This document shows, piece by piece, positions 2,365 to 10,562 of a stretch of 64,000 bases of DNA. Position 1 is the stretch's first letter; each line of letters starts with the position of its first letter. The position numbers were made by a program, and so were the translations under genes. A model generated the notes under the pieces. The model was not told the origin of the DNA. It made no database searches and worked only from the letters and a program-made list of their open reading frames with translations. The DNA comes from Emticicia agri. Lineage in GTDB: Bacteria; Bacteroidota; Bacteroidia; Cytophagales; Spirosomataceae. The stretch lies in assembly GCF_004168285.1 (NCBI RefSeq), contig NZ_SEWF01000015.1:62001-126000 (forward strand), written 5' to 3'.

Positions 2365-2400
2365 ATTTTAAAAAGAAAGAGACGGCCAGCGACCGTCTCT
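2365..2400 (-). terminator. Rho-independent terminator after susCD
   Basis: Arms of 8 bp (AGAGACGG at 2378-2385 and CCGTCTCT at 2393-2400) enclose a 7-nt loop. On the minus strand the stem is followed by a T-rich tract (TTTCTTTTT) running to about 2368. It lies 62 bp beyond the SusD stop codon and should end the susC-susD transcript. Confidence 0.75.
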
Positions 2401-2461
2401 CTTAGCTTACTTATGAAACAAAACGTACGTTATTAGTATTGACTTAGTATTTCAGCTTAAA

Positions 2462-4180
2462 TCAATAGCCGGGATTTTGTTTTAAACCTTGTTTACCATC
2501 AGAAGTCTTACTTTGATTAATAGCAAACTCAGGGATGGGCAGGTATTCGTCTTTCCCTTTTTTGAATACCACCCCTGCAATACTGGTTCTTGCCACAGAT
2601 TCTCTTTTGATAAACTCATTGATAACCACATCGGCAACACCCCATCTTACGAGGTCATAGAAACGATGACCTTCCATCGCTAACTCAAGGAAACGCTCAA
2701 ATCTTACGGCATCTCTGGCAACAGTCTTGTCTGTCCACGGAGCAGTATAGGTAGCTACCTGATAGTCGGCGGCAGGCTGGTTACCATCCATTACTTTGGT
2801 CGATTTCACGGCACGGTCACGAACCATGTTTACATATTCCTGTGCTTTGGTCAGGCTTCCTACTTCTACCTCACATTCAGCAGCCATTAGCAATAAATCG
2901 GCGTACCGAAGTAGTAAAAGGGTTTTGCCTAATTGTGACTGACCCCATGAACCTGGTATCTGATATTTGCCTACTTCATCTTTCCATTGAATATGTTTAT
3001 TAGGCAACCACGGGCCACCATTGGCCAACTGGCGAATCCAGGTGGCTTTGGCAGGACCAAAATCTTTGTAAGGAATGCCAATACGACCAACCGTGTAATC
3101 AAGACGTGTATCTAACTGGCCTCTGTCAGGGTAGTCGTTCGGATTTGACTCCTGACTTTTTACATTTACGGCATTAGAAGTATATAATAAAGGCAAACCT
3201 GCTTGTGTCCGGAAACCGTTTACCAATGTTTGTGATGGCTGATGGAAACCACAGCAGCCGCCGGGGCCGTCGTTATGCGGATTAGTCAATTCACCTTCTT
3301 TGTTGCTGTTAGCACCACCTGTGCCATCACCAACGGTATATTGAATACCAAACATTACTTCTTTTCCATTTTCAAAATCACCTCTGAATACATCTTTGAA
3401 ATCGCCTTGCAGCCCATATTTCTCACCTTTAGAAGTTACACCATTGGCAATAATGGCGTCAAACACTGCTTTGGCTTCTGCGTATTTATTCTGATAAAGC
3501 AATGCTTTGGCATAATAAGCTCCGGCAGCCCATTTATTTACACGACCAATCTGCGCCTGGGTAGGAGGAAGGTTATCATAAGCAAATTTTAAATCAGCTT
3601 CAATCTGAGGCCAGATACTTGCCTCATTTGTCAAGGCTTTGTACTGGTCGGTAGAAGTAACTTTTTCATCTACATAAGGTACATTATTAAAATTTCTTTT
3701 CGCTTCAAAATGGTTGAATCCACGTAGAAAGCGAGCTTCGGCAATAATGTTTTTCTTGTTGGTTTCGGTAAGGCCGGGTACTTTTTCAACAATCCGCAAT
3801 ACAATATTTGCCATGCCGATAGCATCATAGACGGCTTTCCATTTGTTAGTTACAGAAGGGTTACTTGGCAATACTTCGAAACGCTCGGTAGGATTGATTT
3901 CTGTAGCCTGGTCAAGAGATTCAGAACCTTTATAGGCATCGTCAGAACGGATACTTCCCCATAACCAGTTGCTGGCACTTGTGTACCATGCCGCAATCTG
4001 ATTGCCTGTTAAGGCGCGGTAGGCCACAATCAGGGCACCGTTTACACCATTTTCGTTGGTAATCGCTTCTTCAGAGATAGCTCCAAGCGGTGGGCGGTCA
4101 AGAAACTCGTCTTTACACGAGACCACCACCATCAGCGAGAGTATAATTGAGGTTGAGAAAATTAAAATATATTTTTTCAT
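2462..4180 (-). CDS. SusD/RagB-family nutrient-binding outer membrane lipoprotein
   Basis: Surface lipoprotein that binds the ligand and caps the SusC channel encoded 31 bp upstream. The 572-aa product begins with a lipoprotein signal peptide ending VVVSC, so Cys22 is the likely lipidated residue. The next residues (KDEFLDRPPLGAISEE) are typical of SusD proteins. TPR-like helices (e.g. AEARFLRGFNHFEAKRN) and the C-terminal signature (FERFLELAMEGHRFYDLVRWG near residue 495, ending NPGY) are also family hallmarks. No glycan-cleaving enzyme lies in the same transcription unit, so the ligand cannot be inferred. A terminator follows at 2365-2400. Confidence 0.95.
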   Translation of the reverse strand: MKKYILIFSTSIILSLMVVVSCKDEFLDRPPLGAISEEAITNENGVNGALIVAYRALTGNQIAAWYTSASNWLWGSIRSDDAYKGSESLDQATEINPTERFEVLPSNPSVTNKWKAVYDAIGMANIVLRIVEKVPGLTETNKKNIIAEARFLRGFNHFEAKRNFNNVPYVDEKVTSTDQYKALTNEASIWPQIEADLKFAYDNLPPTQAQIGRVNKWAAGAYYAKALLYQNKYAEAKAVFDAIIANGVTSKGEKYGLQGDFKDVFRGDFENGKEVMFGIQYTVGDGTGGANSNKEGELTNPHNDGPGGCCGFHQPSQTLVNGFRTQAGLPLLYTSNAVNVKSQESNPNDYPDRGQLDTRLDYTVGRIGIPYKDFGPAKATWIRQLANGGPWLPNKHIQWKDEVGKYQIPGSWGQSQLGKTLLLLRYADLLLMAAECEVEVGSLTKAQEYVNMVRDRAVKSTKVMDGNQPAADYQVATYTAPWTDKTVARDAVRFERFLELAMEGHRFYDLVRWGVADVVINEFIKRESVARTSIAGVVFKKGKDEYLPIPEFAINQSKTSDGKQGLKQNPGY

Positions 4181-4211: not shown

Positions 4212-7200
4212 TTATAGTCCGATGTTCACACCCAAAAGCACAGTTCTTGGTGCAGGAGTTCTGAACTGGTCAACTCCCATTTGTAATTCGCTATTACCCA
4301 AGATTCCGATATCAGGATCTGAACCAGAGTATTTGGTAATGGTGAATAAATTCTGAACCTGTACATATATTCTTGCTCTGCCTATACCCGCTTTGCCAAT
4401 CCATTTGCTTGGCAGCGTATAGCCTAATTGTGCCTGACGGGCACGTAAGAATGAACCGCTTTCTACATAATAAGAGGTCGAGATTGACCCTGAATAAGTA
4501 TCGTTGGCATTCAATATTGGTAGGCGGCCACTTGTATTCTGTGGTGTCCATGAGTCAGTCAGTACTTCTGTATTATAACCACCCACAAAGCCTCTCAGGT
4601 GAGTAGCCCATTTGGTATAATTATAAATATCATTGCCGTAGTTCCAGAAAAGGAATGTCTGGAAATCGAAGCCTTTATAAGTAAGCGAGATGTCGGTACC
4701 AATCTGGAATTTAGGAATCGGATTGCCTATATAGGTCTGGTCGTTACCATCAATTACTTTGTCGCCGTTAATATCTTTGATTTTCCAAGAGCCTACTCTT
4801 TTATAAGGCATAGCTGCGTGTGCATCAACCTCTGCCTGATTCTGGAAGTTACCTTCTACTACCCAACCCCAGAACGAAGCTAACGGACGGCCTCCTTCTA
4901 CACGTTGGATATTGCCTAAACGACCTGCGCCAAATAAAAGAGCTGAACTACCCTCGGCATCAATTTTCACTGCTTCGTTTTTGTAGTGTGTAAAGGTAGC
5001 ACCAATGCTATAACCTAAATCAGTAGTGATTTTACCTTTCGTACCAAGCGCAATATCTATCCCTTTATTCACCATCGTTCCTACGTTGATTCTGGGCTGT
5101 CCAACAGTCGGTTCCAGGCCGTTAGGTTGTCTGTCAACCAATAGGTCTTTGGTAGTATTGTTGAAATACTCAATACTGAAATCTAATTTGCCATTCCAGA
5201 GTGTACCGTCTAAACCAATGTTAGTCATTTCGGCTGCTTCCCATTTGGTAGCAGGGTTACCTACTACGCTCGGGCGATAACCGATAACCGGTAAGCCATT
5301 ACCTCCGGTAATATCATAAGCGGTATTTGCCAGGCCTGCCGAGTAGAACGAGTAGGCATTGGCCGAACCTACGTTACGTTGGCTACCCATTTGTCCCCAA
5401 CCGGCTCTTAGTTTCAAGTCTGTAACAAACGGAATAGATTTCATGAATGCTTCTTCTGAAAGTCTCCAACCAACACCAAAGGCAGGGAAAACACCCACAC
5501 GGCTTTCAGGGCCGAATACTGAAGCCGCATCACGACGAACAGTGGCACTGAATAAATATCTGTCCATTAACTGATATTCAGCTTTCCCCATCAATGAATA
5601 AAGGGTACGAGGTGTTCCGGGTGAGCCGCCGTTTTGTGGCAGGTTTTTACCTGTATTCAACGACCAGAAATTAGGGTCATTGAAGTCGTAATCAGTTCTG
5701 CTACCAGATATGCCTCTACCCTGGCTGAAGATAGACTCGGTAGCGGCAAATAGTTTCAACGAATGGTCTTTGTTGAAGTCCTTTTTATATTGGATACTAT
5801 TGGTCCATGTCCATGAGAACCCTCTGCCAAAATACTCATTGAAAGCATTGTTACGGGTTGGCTCTGCTTTTTCAGGCGTAATGAACACAAAGTTGTAACC
5901 ATTAGTCATATTCTGGTCGATACCGAACGAAGTGGAAAGAACAATATCTTTGTACACTTCAATCTGGGCATAGAGGTTTCCGAATAAATTGAAGCCGGTA
6001 AACTTGTTGTCTTTGTTGCGGAATAATGAAACAGTAGGTACCCCTGTACTACCTGCTTCACCTAAGGATGTACCGGCAAAATTACCTTTTACGTCATAAA
6101 CCGGTAAGAAAGGGACTGTACGTAATCCGGCATACCACGGGCTGGCCTCATTATTAAAGTCAAGACCATCGCCCGAGTTGAATGGGTTTCCACTGGCACC
6201 ACTCTGATTAGTAAAAGCCACCTGCATATTTTCGCCGATTGTCAACCATTTGGTTGGTTTAAAACGGGTATTGGCACGAACAGTTACCCGATTCAGGGAG
6301 GTATGTTTAAAGATTCCATCTGTACCAAAATAGTTTACCCCTAATGAGTAAGCACCTTTATCAGTACCTCCGGTAGCTGTAATCTGATGGCTTTGTACAG
6401 GGGCGCTTTGTGTAGCTTCTCTCAGCCAGTCAGTACCCATACTGGTTTCGGCAATCTGATAGGTGCGGTCATAGCTATAGGGGTCATAGTTATATCTGCT
6501 CATATCTGGATTAGTCGCATCACCCGGGTTTGCCACTACGTTTGTGTTTGTAACCAGATATTTTGGAATACCATTCTGGAATACGTTGCTTTTGAACGGA
6601 ATACCCGCTCCGGCTGCGGCAGCCTGCAAATACTCATAATATTGCTGGGTATTCATCATACTTGGGAAAACTCTGTCTGGCAATGATTGAACACCATAGT
6701 AGCCATCGTACGATATAGTAGTTTTGCCCGATGTACCTTGTTTGGTTGTAACTACTATTACCCCATTAGCCGCACGAGAACCATAGATAGAAGCAGAAAC
6801 AGGGTCTTTTAGTACCTGCACCGACTCAATATCCTGCGGATTAAGGGCGTTGGCGTTGTCGGTTGGTACACCATCAATAATGTAGAGAGGGTCGTTATTA
6901 CCAAACGAAGTAAAACCCCTGATACGTACTTTGGCAGGAGCACCCGGTGCACCTGTACCACTTACGGTTACACCGGGGGCTCTGCCTTGTAGCATATTAC
7001 CCAGGTTTGATGAAGGCTGTTGTAAGGTAGATTTGGTATTTACCACAGCTACCGAACCGATAATGTCTTTCTTTCTTTCAGAGGTATAGCCCGTTACAAC
7101 GATTTCGTCAAGCGAGTTTACATCTTCTTCAAGGGTTACGTCAATGACTGTTTTAGACCCGATTTCTACGGTTTTCAGGGTGTAACCAATAGAAGAGAAG

Positions 7201-7430
7201 GTCAGGCTTTTAGCACCTGCTTTGGCAGCAATCTGGTAACTGCCATTGGCATCTGTAACAGCACCGGTGGTAGTTCCCTGCACAACAACGCTCACACCCG
7301 GAATACCCGCACCGTCTTTATCAGTTACTTTTCCGCTGATGTTGGTTTGTGCATAGGTAAGGATTGTGGAACAACAGAGCAACAGGCAGAGTTTGATACC
7401 CCGCATGTAAGTAGAATAAAAGTGTTTCAT
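4212..7430 (-). CDS. SusC/RagA-family TonB-dependent outer membrane receptor
   Basis: Outer membrane channel of 1072 aa that imports the ligand captured by the SusD partner. In order it has a signal peptide ending about residue 28 (LTYAQ), a carboxypeptidase-regulatory-like domain (ISGKVTDKDGAGIPGVSV, about 31-110), the SusC signature DEIVVTGYTS (about 108-118), a plug domain (VRIRGFTSFGNNDPLYIIDG, about 165-190) and a long beta-barrel. The length is normal for the family. A -7 element lies 85-92 bp upstream, and the palindrome at 7543-7560 lies just behind it. With the two-component genes immediately upstream, this suggests control by that response regulator. Confidence 0.96.
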   Translation of the reverse strand: MKHFYSTYMRGIKLCLLLCCSTILTYAQTNISGKVTDKDGAGIPGVSVVVQGTTTGAVTDANGSYQIAAKAGAKSLTFSSIGYTLKTVEIGSKTVIDVTLEEDVNSLDEIVVTGYTSERKKDIIGSVAVVNTKSTLQQPSSNLGNMLQGRAPGVTVSGTGAPGAPAKVRIRGFTSFGNNDPLYIIDGVPTDNANALNPQDIESVQVLKDPVSASIYGSRAANGVIVVTTKQGTSGKTTISYDGYYGVQSLPDRVFPSMMNTQQYYEYLQAAAAGAGIPFKSNVFQNGIPKYLVTNTNVVANPGDATNPDMSRYNYDPYSYDRTYQIAETSMGTDWLREATQSAPVQSHQITATGGTDKGAYSLGVNYFGTDGIFKHTSLNRVTVRANTRFKPTKWLTIGENMQVAFTNQSGASGNPFNSGDGLDFNNEASPWYAGLRTVPFLPVYDVKGNFAGTSLGEAGSTGVPTVSLFRNKDNKFTGFNLFGNLYAQIEVYKDIVLSTSFGIDQNMTNGYNFVFITPEKAEPTRNNAFNEYFGRGFSWTWTNSIQYKKDFNKDHSLKLFAATESIFSQGRGISGSRTDYDFNDPNFWSLNTGKNLPQNGGSPGTPRTLYSLMGKAEYQLMDRYLFSATVRRDAASVFGPESRVGVFPAFGVGWRLSEEAFMKSIPFVTDLKLRAGWGQMGSQRNVGSANAYSFYSAGLANTAYDITGGNGLPVIGYRPSVVGNPATKWEAAEMTNIGLDGTLWNGKLDFSIEYFNNTTKDLLVDRQPNGLEPTVGQPRINVGTMVNKGIDIALGTKGKITTDLGYSIGATFTHYKNEAVKIDAEGSSALLFGAGRLGNIQRVEGGRPLASFWGWVVEGNFQNQAEVDAHAAMPYKRVGSWKIKDINGDKVIDGNDQTYIGNPIPKFQIGTDISLTYKGFDFQTFLFWNYGNDIYNYTKWATHLRGFVGGYNTEVLTDSWTPQNTSGRLPILNANDTYSGSISTSYYVESGSFLRARQAQLGYTLPSKWIGKAGIGRARIYVQVQNLFTITKYSGSDPDIGILGNSELQMGVDQFRTPAPRTVLLGVNIGL

Positions 7431-7514: not shown

Positions 7515-7522
7515 CAAAAGTA
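7515..7522 (-). promoter_or_regulatory. -7 element of the susC promoter
   Basis: The minus strand reads TACTTTTG, an exact match to TAnnTTTG. The predicted transcription start is near 7508, giving a leader of about 78 nt before susC. The TAGGG palindrome begins 23 bp further upstream, the same spacing as at the promoter at 8517-8524. Confidence 0.65.
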
Positions 7523-7542
7523 GGAGGTATGCTATTACATTT

Positions 7543-7560
7543 TATTAGGGAAAACCCTAT
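7543..7560. promoter_or_regulatory. Palindromic operator TAGGG-N4-CCCTA upstream of susC
   Basis: The 18 bases TATTAGGGAAAACCCTAT form an inverted repeat (TAGGG 7546-7550, CCCTA 7555-7559). The identical 18-mer occurs at 8545-8562. The centre lies about 44 bp before the predicted start of susC transcription, the usual place for an activator that touches RNA polymerase. The likely binder is the NarL-type regulator encoded at 7647-8291. This is inferred from position and duplication. Confidence 0.65.
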
Positions 7561-7646
7561 ATTTATAGCGTAAAAGAAGATTTTAATGAGATAGTATTTA
7601 AGCGGCTTTAAGAGTAAAATATATCACTCGGAACTTTCGTGCCGAT

Positions 7647-8291
7647 TTATAAATAATTCATTTCTAATGCTGTTTTAATCAATAAAGCTGTATTGGGTAC
7701 ATCAAACTTGACCAATAAACTGCTGCGATGAAATTCTATGGCTTTGAGTGTTACAAACAGCTTGGTAGCCATTTGCTGGGTAGTATAACCTTCCGAAATC
7801 AGAAAGAGTACTTCTTTCTCACGAGGCGATAAGCGTATTTCGCTGGTAGGTATGAAAGTAGATTTTCTGGATTTTTTATCGTGTGTATCCATCAATTCTT
7901 TAATAAAGGGATTGATGTATTTTTTGCCCTCATAAACAAACTGAATAGCTTGTATCAATTCGGCTTTTGAGGTATTTTTCAATAAATAGCCTTGCCCTCC
8001 TTTTCGCATGACCCGTTTTACTATACTTATCTCGTCGTGCATGGTCAGAAAAATTACTTTCATCGATTTATAGTGTTGTAGCAGGTATTCATACAACATC
8101 AGCCCATCTTCTACTCTTGGAAATGAAATATCAAGCAGGATAATATCAATGGAGAGTTGTTGTAATGCGTCTTTGACAGACTCAACATTGTAGCATCTTC
8201 CGGCTACTTTTAAATCTTCATTATCGGCTAATAAAGACTCTATTCCTTCTACAAATACATTATGGTCGTCGGCAATCAATAAATTAATCAT
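7647..8291 (-). CDS. NarL/FixJ-family response regulator
   Basis: DNA-binding response regulator of 214 aa. The receiver domain (about 1-120) has the acidic pair DD at 8-9, the phospho-acceptor Asp54 in ILLDISFP and the conserved Lys in YLLKN. The C-terminal LuxR-type helix-turn-helix starts at LSPREKEVLFLISEGYTTQQ (about 153-172). The partner kinase is encoded upstream at 8587-10335. The 295-bp gap between them has its own promoter-like elements, so the pair need not be one transcript. It probably controls the SusCD genes and itself through the repeated palindrome. Confidence 0.93.
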   Translation of the reverse strand: MINLLIADDHNVFVEGIESLLADNEDLKVAGRCYNVESVKDALQQLSIDIILLDISFPRVEDGLMLYEYLLQHYKSMKVIFLTMHDEISIVKRVMRKGGQGYLLKNTSKAELIQAIQFVYEGKKYINPFIKELMDTHDKKSRKSTFIPTSEIRLSPREKEVLFLISEGYTTQQMATKLFVTLKAIEFHRSSLLVKFDVPNTALLIKTALEMNYL

Positions 8292-8364
8292 GGCAGAACA
8301 GTAGATAGAAACCCAGCATAAGTTAACAGATAAAAGCAGGTAGATGAGGCAATAATAAATTTTT

Positions 8365-8401
8365 CAAAGATATAAAAGATGAGATGGTTAAAAACCATCT
8401 C
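8365..8401 (-). promoter_or_regulatory. Hairpin and -7-like element in the leader of the regulator gene
   Basis: A perfect inverted repeat (GAGATGGTT 8381-8389, AACCATCTC 8393-8401) has a 3-nt loop. On the minus strand it is followed by ATCTTTTATATCTTTG, whose last 8 bases (8372 down to 8365) match TAnnTTTG. It may be an attenuator or terminator for transcripts coming from 8510, an operator inside a second promoter for the regulator gene, or both. Sequence alone does not decide. Confidence 0.4.
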
Positions 8402-8502
8402 TCTTACAATTTAATTTTTACTTTTTTTAAGAAAATCTTTGTTGGCGCTTTAGTTTGGGATAATGTTTCAATAAGAGGTATCATTCGTTCTAAGTATCAT
8501 CG

Positions 8503-8524
8503 GGGTAATTACCCTGCAAAATTA
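8503..8524 (-). promoter_or_regulatory. -7 element (8517-8524) with palindrome at the predicted start site
   Basis: The minus strand reads TAATTTTG at 8524-8517, an exact TAnnTTTG match. The predicted start near 8510 falls inside a perfect 12-bp palindrome GGGTAATTACCC at 8503-8514. Transcription would run toward the response regulator, with a leader of about 220 nt. Confidence 0.55.
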
Positions 8525-8544
8525 GACCGATTGGCCTTTGTATC

Positions 8545-8562
8545 TATTAGGGAAAACCCTAT
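8545..8562. promoter_or_regulatory. Palindromic operator TAGGG-N4-CCCTA upstream of the regulator gene
   Basis: Identical over 18 bp to the site at 7543-7560 (TAGGG 8548-8552, CCCTA 8557-8561). Exactly 23 bp separate the palindrome core from the -7 element at 8517-8524, as at susC. This points to autoregulation of the response regulator. Confidence 0.65.
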
Positions 8563-8586: not shown

Positions 8587-10335
8587 TTAACAGGCAATTT
8601 TAGCCATAGGTACCGAAATCATGACTGATGTGCCGCTACTTGCCGGAGAATGGTTTTGCCATAGTACCTGCCCATTGAGGTACTCGATGCGTGAAGTAAC
8701 ATTGAGTATGCCACTGCCTTGTGAAGGGGCATCAACATTAAAACCAACACCATCGTCTTCTACGCTTATCAGCAGATTTTCCTGATTGGCCATTAACTGA
8801 ATGTTTATTCTGTGGGCACAGGCGTGTTTCATGGCATTGTTAATTAACTCCTGAATAACCCGATACAACAAAGCAATGGCTTCCTGATTCAGAGGAGCCA
8901 GCGAACCATATTTTTCGAGACTTATTTTGGTTTTTTTTGTACCCGGAAATTTGTTTACCAAATCTTCTAATGCTGTTTCAAGCCCGTATTTAGAAAGTGC
9001 AGTAGGGTGTAAATTGTGTGAGATAAGTCTGATTTCCTGGCAAGCATCATCAATTATCTGGTTCAGCATAGCTCGTTCTTTAGCTGTAAACGGTTTATGT
9101 CTTGATTCAACAAAAAACTTGATTTGTGTGAGTTGAATGCCCAGACTATCGTGCAAATCACGGGCAATGCGTCCCCGCTCGTTTTCCTGCCCTTGTATCA
9201 GCGCTTCTAATGATTTCAGTTCAAGATTCCTGATTTTCTGGCTATGAATAATATCTTTCTGTTGGGCAATGGTATTCAGTTGTTTTCGGCCTACAAAGAG
9301 GGCTACTACTGCTAAAATAAGAAATACAGTCAAAACAATAAGCAATATATTCTGTAGTCTTGCTTCACGGTTTTCCTGTTTAGTCAATTGATTCTGCAAC
9401 TGCAGATTTCTATACTGGCTGTTGAGTTCCTCCAGACGAATGGTCATGGTTTGTTCAGACTCATAATATTGGTTGGAGTACAGCAATGTTTGCTGATAAA
9501 ATTCATTGGCTTTCTGAAACTCACCGATTTTGGTGTAGGCTATAGAAAGGTGGTAAGAAATGTCTTTGGCATAAGCCACGTCTTTGGCTTTTCCACTATT
9601 TTCATACGCTTTCAGATAGTACTCAATGGCTGATTCATAATTACCTGAAAGTGCTTCTATTCTACCCATATAAAAATTATTAACAGAAATCATCCAGTTA
9701 ACATTTGCCTGCCAGGCATACTTCTGACTTAGCAGAAGATACTTCCGGGCCAGAATCAGATGCTTATGGTTAATATAACTGATAGCCAGTAAATTGTGGG
9801 TATAACCCAGATCCAAAAAAAGATTATTGGCAATACATTTTTTTTCGATAATCAATAATTGCCTGATAAGTGAATAGTCAAAAGGAGGCTGATGTTTTTT
9901 GGCATCAATAATAGATAATTCAGTATGAATTTCCTTTTGTAGCTGGTTTGTTCTTTTATAATAGCCTAAAGCTGATTCATAGTTTTCAATGGCATATTTT
10001 CTGGTATAATTATCAAAGTAATACATCCAGCCCACATCCATTTTAGTATCATAATACCTGGCTGAGTCGCCTGTTCGTTTAAAATAGGTCAGGCTGGTCT
10101 GATAAGCCTCCAGACTATAGATATTGAAACCATACAGACTCTGGTAAGTATCTCCCAGACGCTTATACAAAGGTCCTAATTTGTTCGGATTTCCTTTATT
10201 TTCTTCAATCGCATTTTTTAAATCAACGATATTGGCAGGGTCTTTTTTATTATCAGCCTGAGCATACCCATTCAGATAAAAACAAACGGTAAGCAAACCG
10301 ATAGTAGCTACTTTCAGGTAACAAAAGGTTTTCAT
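8587..10335 (-). CDS. TPR-containing sensor histidine kinase (HisKA_3 type)
   Basis: Membrane sensor kinase of 582 aa, partner of the NarL-type regulator encoded next. A signal peptide (about 1-25, ending NGYAQ) precedes a periplasmic region of TPR-like helices (about 50-290). A coiled segment, one membrane helix (about 330-348) and the kinase follow. Phospho-accepting His395 lies in RIARDLHDSLGIQ, the signature of NarX/DesK-like kinases. The ATPase part has INNAMKHA and the glycine box DDGVGFN. The fold predicts sensing of a periplasmic signal or protein, plausibly linked to the SusC/D substrate. The regulator gene lies 295 bp downstream. Confidence 0.93.
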   Translation of the reverse strand: MKTFCYLKVATIGLLTVCFYLNGYAQADNKKDPANIVDLKNAIEENKGNPNKLGPLYKRLGDTYQSLYGFNIYSLEAYQTSLTYFKRTGDSARYYDTKMDVGWMYYFDNYTRKYAIENYESALGYYKRTNQLQKEIHTELSIIDAKKHQPPFDYSLIRQLLIIEKKCIANNLFLDLGYTHNLLAISYINHKHLILARKYLLLSQKYAWQANVNWMISVNNFYMGRIEALSGNYESAIEYYLKAYENSGKAKDVAYAKDISYHLSIAYTKIGEFQKANEFYQQTLLYSNQYYESEQTMTIRLEELNSQYRNLQLQNQLTKQENREARLQNILLIVLTVFLILAVVALFVGRKQLNTIAQQKDIIHSQKIRNLELKSLEALIQGQENERGRIARDLHDSLGIQLTQIKFFVESRHKPFTAKERAMLNQIIDDACQEIRLISHNLHPTALSKYGLETALEDLVNKFPGTKKTKISLEKYGSLAPLNQEAIALLYRVIQELINNAMKHACAHRINIQLMANQENLLISVEDDGVGFNVDAPSQGSGILNVTSRIEYLNGQVLWQNHSPASSGTSVMISVPMAKIAC

Positions 10336-10530: not shown

Positions 10531-10562
10531 TTGCAGAGGTTCAGCATGCTGAACCTCTGCAA
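10531..10562 (-). terminator. Perfect 32-bp palindrome, probable terminator
   Basis: Two 16-bp arms (10531-10546 and 10547-10562, left arm TTGCAGAGGTTCAGCA) are exact reverse complements with no spacer. The palindrome lies 25 bp past the stop codon of the membrane-protein gene at 10588. On the minus strand it is followed by a pyrimidine-rich tract (AGATTCTTTTCTTCC). It fits an intrinsic terminator, although perfect symmetry of this length is unusual. Confidence 0.55.

Follow-up and report, generated by a model that had tools for sequence, protein, structure and literature searches.

The locus analysed here raises the question of why one 18-bp sequence, TATTAGGGAAAACCCTAT, stands in identical form ahead of both a susCD pair and a regulator gene, and which protein would act on it. 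The window, i.e. the whole stretch of 64,000 nucleotides that was analysed, originates from an Emticicia species (Spirosomataceae). On its minus strand the features follow one another in the order kinase gene, candidate operator 2, regulator gene, candidate operator 1, susC and susD (Table 1). The initial annotation had described a duplicated operator with identical spacing to two promoters, and both copies were recovered letter for letter; the distance of 23 bp between the core and the TAnnTTTG element was exact on the minus strand at both promoters (7523-7545 and 8525-8547). When up to three mismatches were allowed, four matches to the 18-mer were counted in the window against 0.05 expected, and besides the two exact copies there were just two weak matches with three mismatches each. 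The cores (TAGGGAAAACCCTA) have the form TAGGG-AAAA-CCCTA.

Table 1. Coordinates of the genes and predicted regulatory features of the module within the window.
Feature	Position	Strand	Remarks
susD (SusD/RagB lipoprotein)	2462-4180	-	
Terminator-like hairpin after susD	2376-2402	-	similar to hairpin 8381-8401
susC (SusC/RagA TonB-linked outer-membrane transporter)	4212-7430	-	
-7 box TACTTTTG, predicted susC promoter	7515-7522	-	predicted start ~7510
Candidate operator 1	7543-7560	-	core 7546-7559; centre ~-42.5 of predicted susC promoter
NarL/FixJ-type response regulator (Response_reg + GerE/LuxR HTH)	7647-8291	-	
Terminator-like hairpin GAGATGGTTTTTAACCATCTC, leader between promoter 2 and regulator gene	8381-8401	-	conserved
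-7 box TAATTTTG, predicted promoter 2	8517-8524	-	predicted start ~8512
Candidate operator 2	8545-8562	-	core 8548-8561; centre ~-42.5 of predicted promoter ahead of regulator
TPR sensor histidine kinase (HisKA_3 + HATPase_c)	8587-10335	-	

The regulator combines a receiver domain with a C-terminal GerE/LuxR HTH, both matched above the Pfam cut-offs (PF00072, 80.0 bits; PF00196, 43.7 bits), which is the architecture of the NarL/FixJ type. On the best reading, the TPR histidine kinase encoded beside it is its putative partner. The tandem susC-susD pair was confirmed by TIGR04056 (795 bits) and SusD_RagB (146.5 bits). No carbohydrate-active enzymes were seen among those genes adjoining susCD that were scanned, and an assignment of the SusC substrate from structure was rejected, the nearest solved relatives being labelled 'SusC homolog' and leaving the substrate unfixed. 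Additionally, a perfect 32-base, terminator-like inverted repeat, TTGCAGAGGTTCAGCATGCTGAACCTCTGCAA, was observed at 10531-10562 between an ORF of 142 aa and the kinase gene.

In Flavobacterium psychrophilum, the sigma-A -7 box TAnnTTTG occupies positions -12 to -5 (PMC9723704). When this position was transferred, the offset of 37 placed the centre of the proximal operator at -42.5 relative to the predicted starts, within the range of about -41.5 to -43 that defines class II activator sites, and the distal sites of other genera at about -70.5. As judged from the sequence, the operator geometry is that of a class II activator. No TTTG was seen in the spacer sequences at the position expected for the -33 element. 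The predicted leaders comprise 80 nt for susC and 221 nt from promoter 2 to the regulator gene.

The distribution of the motif was followed by genome-wide scans based on pattern matching, with no weight matrix. The whole genome of 6.65 Mb contains four TAGGGN4CCCTA sites, the AAAA/TTTT centre being found at the two window sites only; the remaining two, with other centres, lie within a gene and at a place with no clear promoter, respectively. The zero-mismatch core followed by 23 bp and TAnnTTTG was found at the two window promoters only. Such a scan had been proposed in the initial annotation, and its outcome is that the sites are not scattered and that the promoter arrangement, at zero mismatches, is confined to the window pair. 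Across 34 related genomes, AGGGN4CCCT followed by 24 bp and TAnnTTTG was detected in three, at the same two promoters each time (the genome of the window, Emticicia sp. C21 and BO119, all with close regulator orthologues), and the reversed-pattern control gave one match. TAGGGN4CCCTA is absent from seven of the eight congeners without a close regulator orthologue, and the eighth has a single site outside any promoter arrangement. This looser pattern gave one further match in the genome of the window, a third candidate target that consists of AAGGGTTTTCCCTC with equal spacing to TATTTTTG (C16:22536 to ~22580, L153), upstream of a gene for a putative lipoprotein of 372 aa.

Within three Emticicia species the operators form islands: the flanks have diverged and the 23-bp spacers are identical between species at only 8-17 of 23 positions, and the offset of 37 is constant in all six promoters despite this drift. 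In Emticicia CRIBPO, with the order regulator-kinase-susC, a single site at offset 37 precedes susC, i.e. the site moves along with susC when the gene order is altered. The comparison was extended to 46 orthologue loci with regulators of 48-89% identity (Emticicia, Spirosoma, Larkinella, Fibrella, Dyadobacter, Siphonobacter and others). The strict motif was present in 38 of these 46 loci, and in promoter geometry in 37, the loci being not fully independent because many come from related species; all 53 loci with paralogous NarL-type regulators lacked the motif, and all 920 shuffled loci the promoter geometry.

In more than ten genera the sites are found together with the orthologous regulator; their spacing is maintained while the spacer sequence has drifted. 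The motif lies at offset 63-66 ahead of the orthologous regulator in Spirosoma, Larkinella, Fibrella, Siphonobacter and Dyadobacter, usually joined by a degenerate copy at 37/38. Most other genera show the order regulator-kinase-susC-susD and a regulator promoter with two sites, the full palindrome at offset 64-66 and a copy, usually degenerate, at 37/38. In Dyadobacter, 63-64 bp separate the distal site from a TAnnTTCG box that precedes the regulator, and two loci of this genus (L068, L082) carry a second site after the kinase gene, 65 bp from TAnnTTTG, which in L068 precedes a GH26 beta-mannanase gene. Three more distant modules (regulator identity 37-43%) contain a CAGGG or AAGGG variant downstream of the kinase gene, at offset 63 in all three and with susC as the next gene in two. 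The upstream arrangement was not found with the Saprospiraceae orthologues (48-49%). Moreover, a perfect TAGGGTAAACCCTA was observed at the end of the kinase gene in a Saprospiraceae MAG (L104:9391), with no same-strand gene of at least 80 aa directly downstream, and in Fibrella forsythiae a second site (L101:5212, offset 65) stands before a LacI-family regulator gene adjoining the response regulator gene.

Both 18-mers are very probably operators through which the NarL-type regulator encoded between them activates susCD as well as the promoter preceding its own gene. The initial annotation had read them as activator sites for this regulator, a reading favoured by their lack of scatter, the class II position, the association with orthologues and the absence from all paralogue loci. 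We infer the following course of events: the TPR histidine kinase would sense a ligand and phosphorylate the regulator, a dimer of which would bind the inverted repeat TAGGG-N4-CCCTA centred at about -42.5, in place of a -33 element. The bound regulator would recruit RNA polymerase to the TAnnTTTG promoter by class II activation. Promoter 1 would then express susCD, and promoter 2 would start a long leader toward the regulator gene. The result would be a positive feedback, which a terminator-like hairpin probably modulates.

This hairpin (Table 1) affects one part of the earlier description. Of the two promoters, the one leads to susC and the other does point at the regulator gene, as had been claimed, but the conserved hairpin intervenes and leaves the product of promoter 2 uncertain. 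It is stable by computation, is called terminator-like on the minus strand, and is found in all three Emticicia species inside the best-conserved intergenic block. Because the hairpin separates promoter 2 from the regulator gene, this promoter may produce an attenuated or terminated leader or a small RNA, and read-through or another source may supply the regulator. In Emticicia, simple positive autoregulation is likely, not secure. The stronger form, in which the main product under operator 2 is a small RNA or terminated leader, some 140 nt long, that ends at the hairpin and is co-induced with susCD, with the regulator expressed by read-through or from another promoter, is possible rather than probable. 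Consistent with it are the stability and conservation of the hairpin, its resemblance to the susD terminator, and the unusual length of the leader, 221 nt where the median of F. psychrophilum is 24 (PMC9723704). However, the T stretch is short and broken (ATCTTTTATAT), conservation is poor in the 5' portion of the leader, the Rfam search of the region gave no match above gathering scores, and other genera have the operator before the regulator, where this hairpin is not evident. A second TAnnTTTG past the hairpin was rejected as a conserved regulator promoter, as it is present in two of the three species only, and the A-rich section within the conserved leader was rejected as a dispersed element, its other matches being short A-rich stretches. 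At the predicted start of promoter 2, and overlapping it, lies a perfect 12-bp palindrome, GGGTAATTACCC (8503-8514), which is not conserved in the two congeners.

As the operator overlaps the -33 region, the bound regulator could instead block the polymerase there and the sites would be repressor operators. This is improbable, since the spacing of both the proximal and the distal site is fixed, a -33 consensus is absent, and NarL-type regulators located at about -42 act mostly as activators. Binding of a different regulator encoded elsewhere, for which the approximately 40 proteins related to this regulator in the genome would offer candidates, is very unlikely, given that the motif tracks the orthologues of this regulator and not the paralogue loci, and given its pattern in the eight congeners without a close orthologue. 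A functionless recent duplication or mobile-element relic, as the identity of the copies might suggest, can practically be dismissed: the flanks are unrelated, the identity ends at the 18-mer, three species keep both copies, and this conservation already contradicts it.

While the operator code is common to the genera, it serves a different SusCD pair outside Emticicia. The SusC of the Emticicia modules are 81-94% identical within the genus and about 32% identical to those of the modules of other genera, which reach approximately 79-93% identity with one another; between the two groups, regulator identity is 55-60%. Four further genomes, among them the congener G006 and also G013, which bears the regulator, contain SusCD pairs of the Emticicia type (60-75% identity), in each case with no adjacent match to the regulator or kinase and no operator. 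The divergence of SusC compared with the similarity of the regulators, together with these operator-free pairs, therefore indicates that the regulator-operator pair and the transporter have come together in new combinations. A GH26 gene is located 9-13 kb from the regulator in G012, G013 and G018, which suggests a beta-mannan system in these three genomes; GH26 also occurs near the module in Dyadobacter. As a substrate in the Emticicia studied here beta-mannan was rejected as unsupported, GH26 being absent from the genome. More speculatively, and with doubt, the regulator, the operator code and the promoter geometry might form a portable cassette, which in Emticicia would have captured a SusCD pair free of this control in other genomes, operator 2 also co-inducing a small RNA or attenuated leader with a tuning role. 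A Spirosomataceae-like module, with SusC 83-90% identical to those genera, was also observed in a record entitled Flavobacterium sp. SUN052 (L083), which would reflect either a mislabelled genome or horizontal transfer.

The literature searched, which included few subscription papers, yielded neither a description of this operator nor one of its cross-genus reuse, nothing direct on a NarL-SusC system and no defined operator for one. For SusCD control by a NarL-type regulator in Bacteroidota, the present analysis supplies a concrete candidate operator together with its -7 box and geometry, and the predicted regulon is easy to test because it is tiny (two or three promoters). In the cross-genus comparison the regulator appears to keep its DNA code while the controlled transporter differs, with a beta-mannanase gene close by in several relatives.

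Control of neighbouring genes by a NarL-type regulator through a palindrome is a mechanism of a known kind. VraR, RcsB and NarL share the receiver and LuxR-HTH architecture, and their solved structures match the regulator of the window along the chain, although it scores far below every NCBIfam equivalog cut-off; to our knowledge, TAGGG-N4-CCCTA is not a known operator of NarL/FixJ-family regulators such as these. In FimS/FimR of Porphyromonas gingivalis, likewise from Bacteroidota, a TPR-type kinase is paired with a regulator of the LuxR/NarL type, and FimR controls fimbriae, not SusCD. The NCBIfam FimS model matches the TPR part of the window kinase weakly, and at 20.1 bits against a cut-off of 600 this kinase falls outside the FimS family. 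That a SusCD locus can encode a pair of sensor kinase and response regulator is known from the chitin utilization locus of Flavobacterium johnsoniae, where deletion of CusS/CusR abolished growth on chitin (PMC5127042); a candidate operator was found for the window system, whereas none was met for CusS/CusR in the consulted part of that report. In contrast to the chitin locus, no glycoside hydrolase is evident beside the window susCD among the genes scanned. Local control of susCD in polysaccharide utilization loci is exerted by hybrid two-component systems, SusR and ECF-sigma/anti-sigma controllers. Unlike these, the system described here would consist of a separate kinase and a NarL-type regulator with its own palindromic operator.
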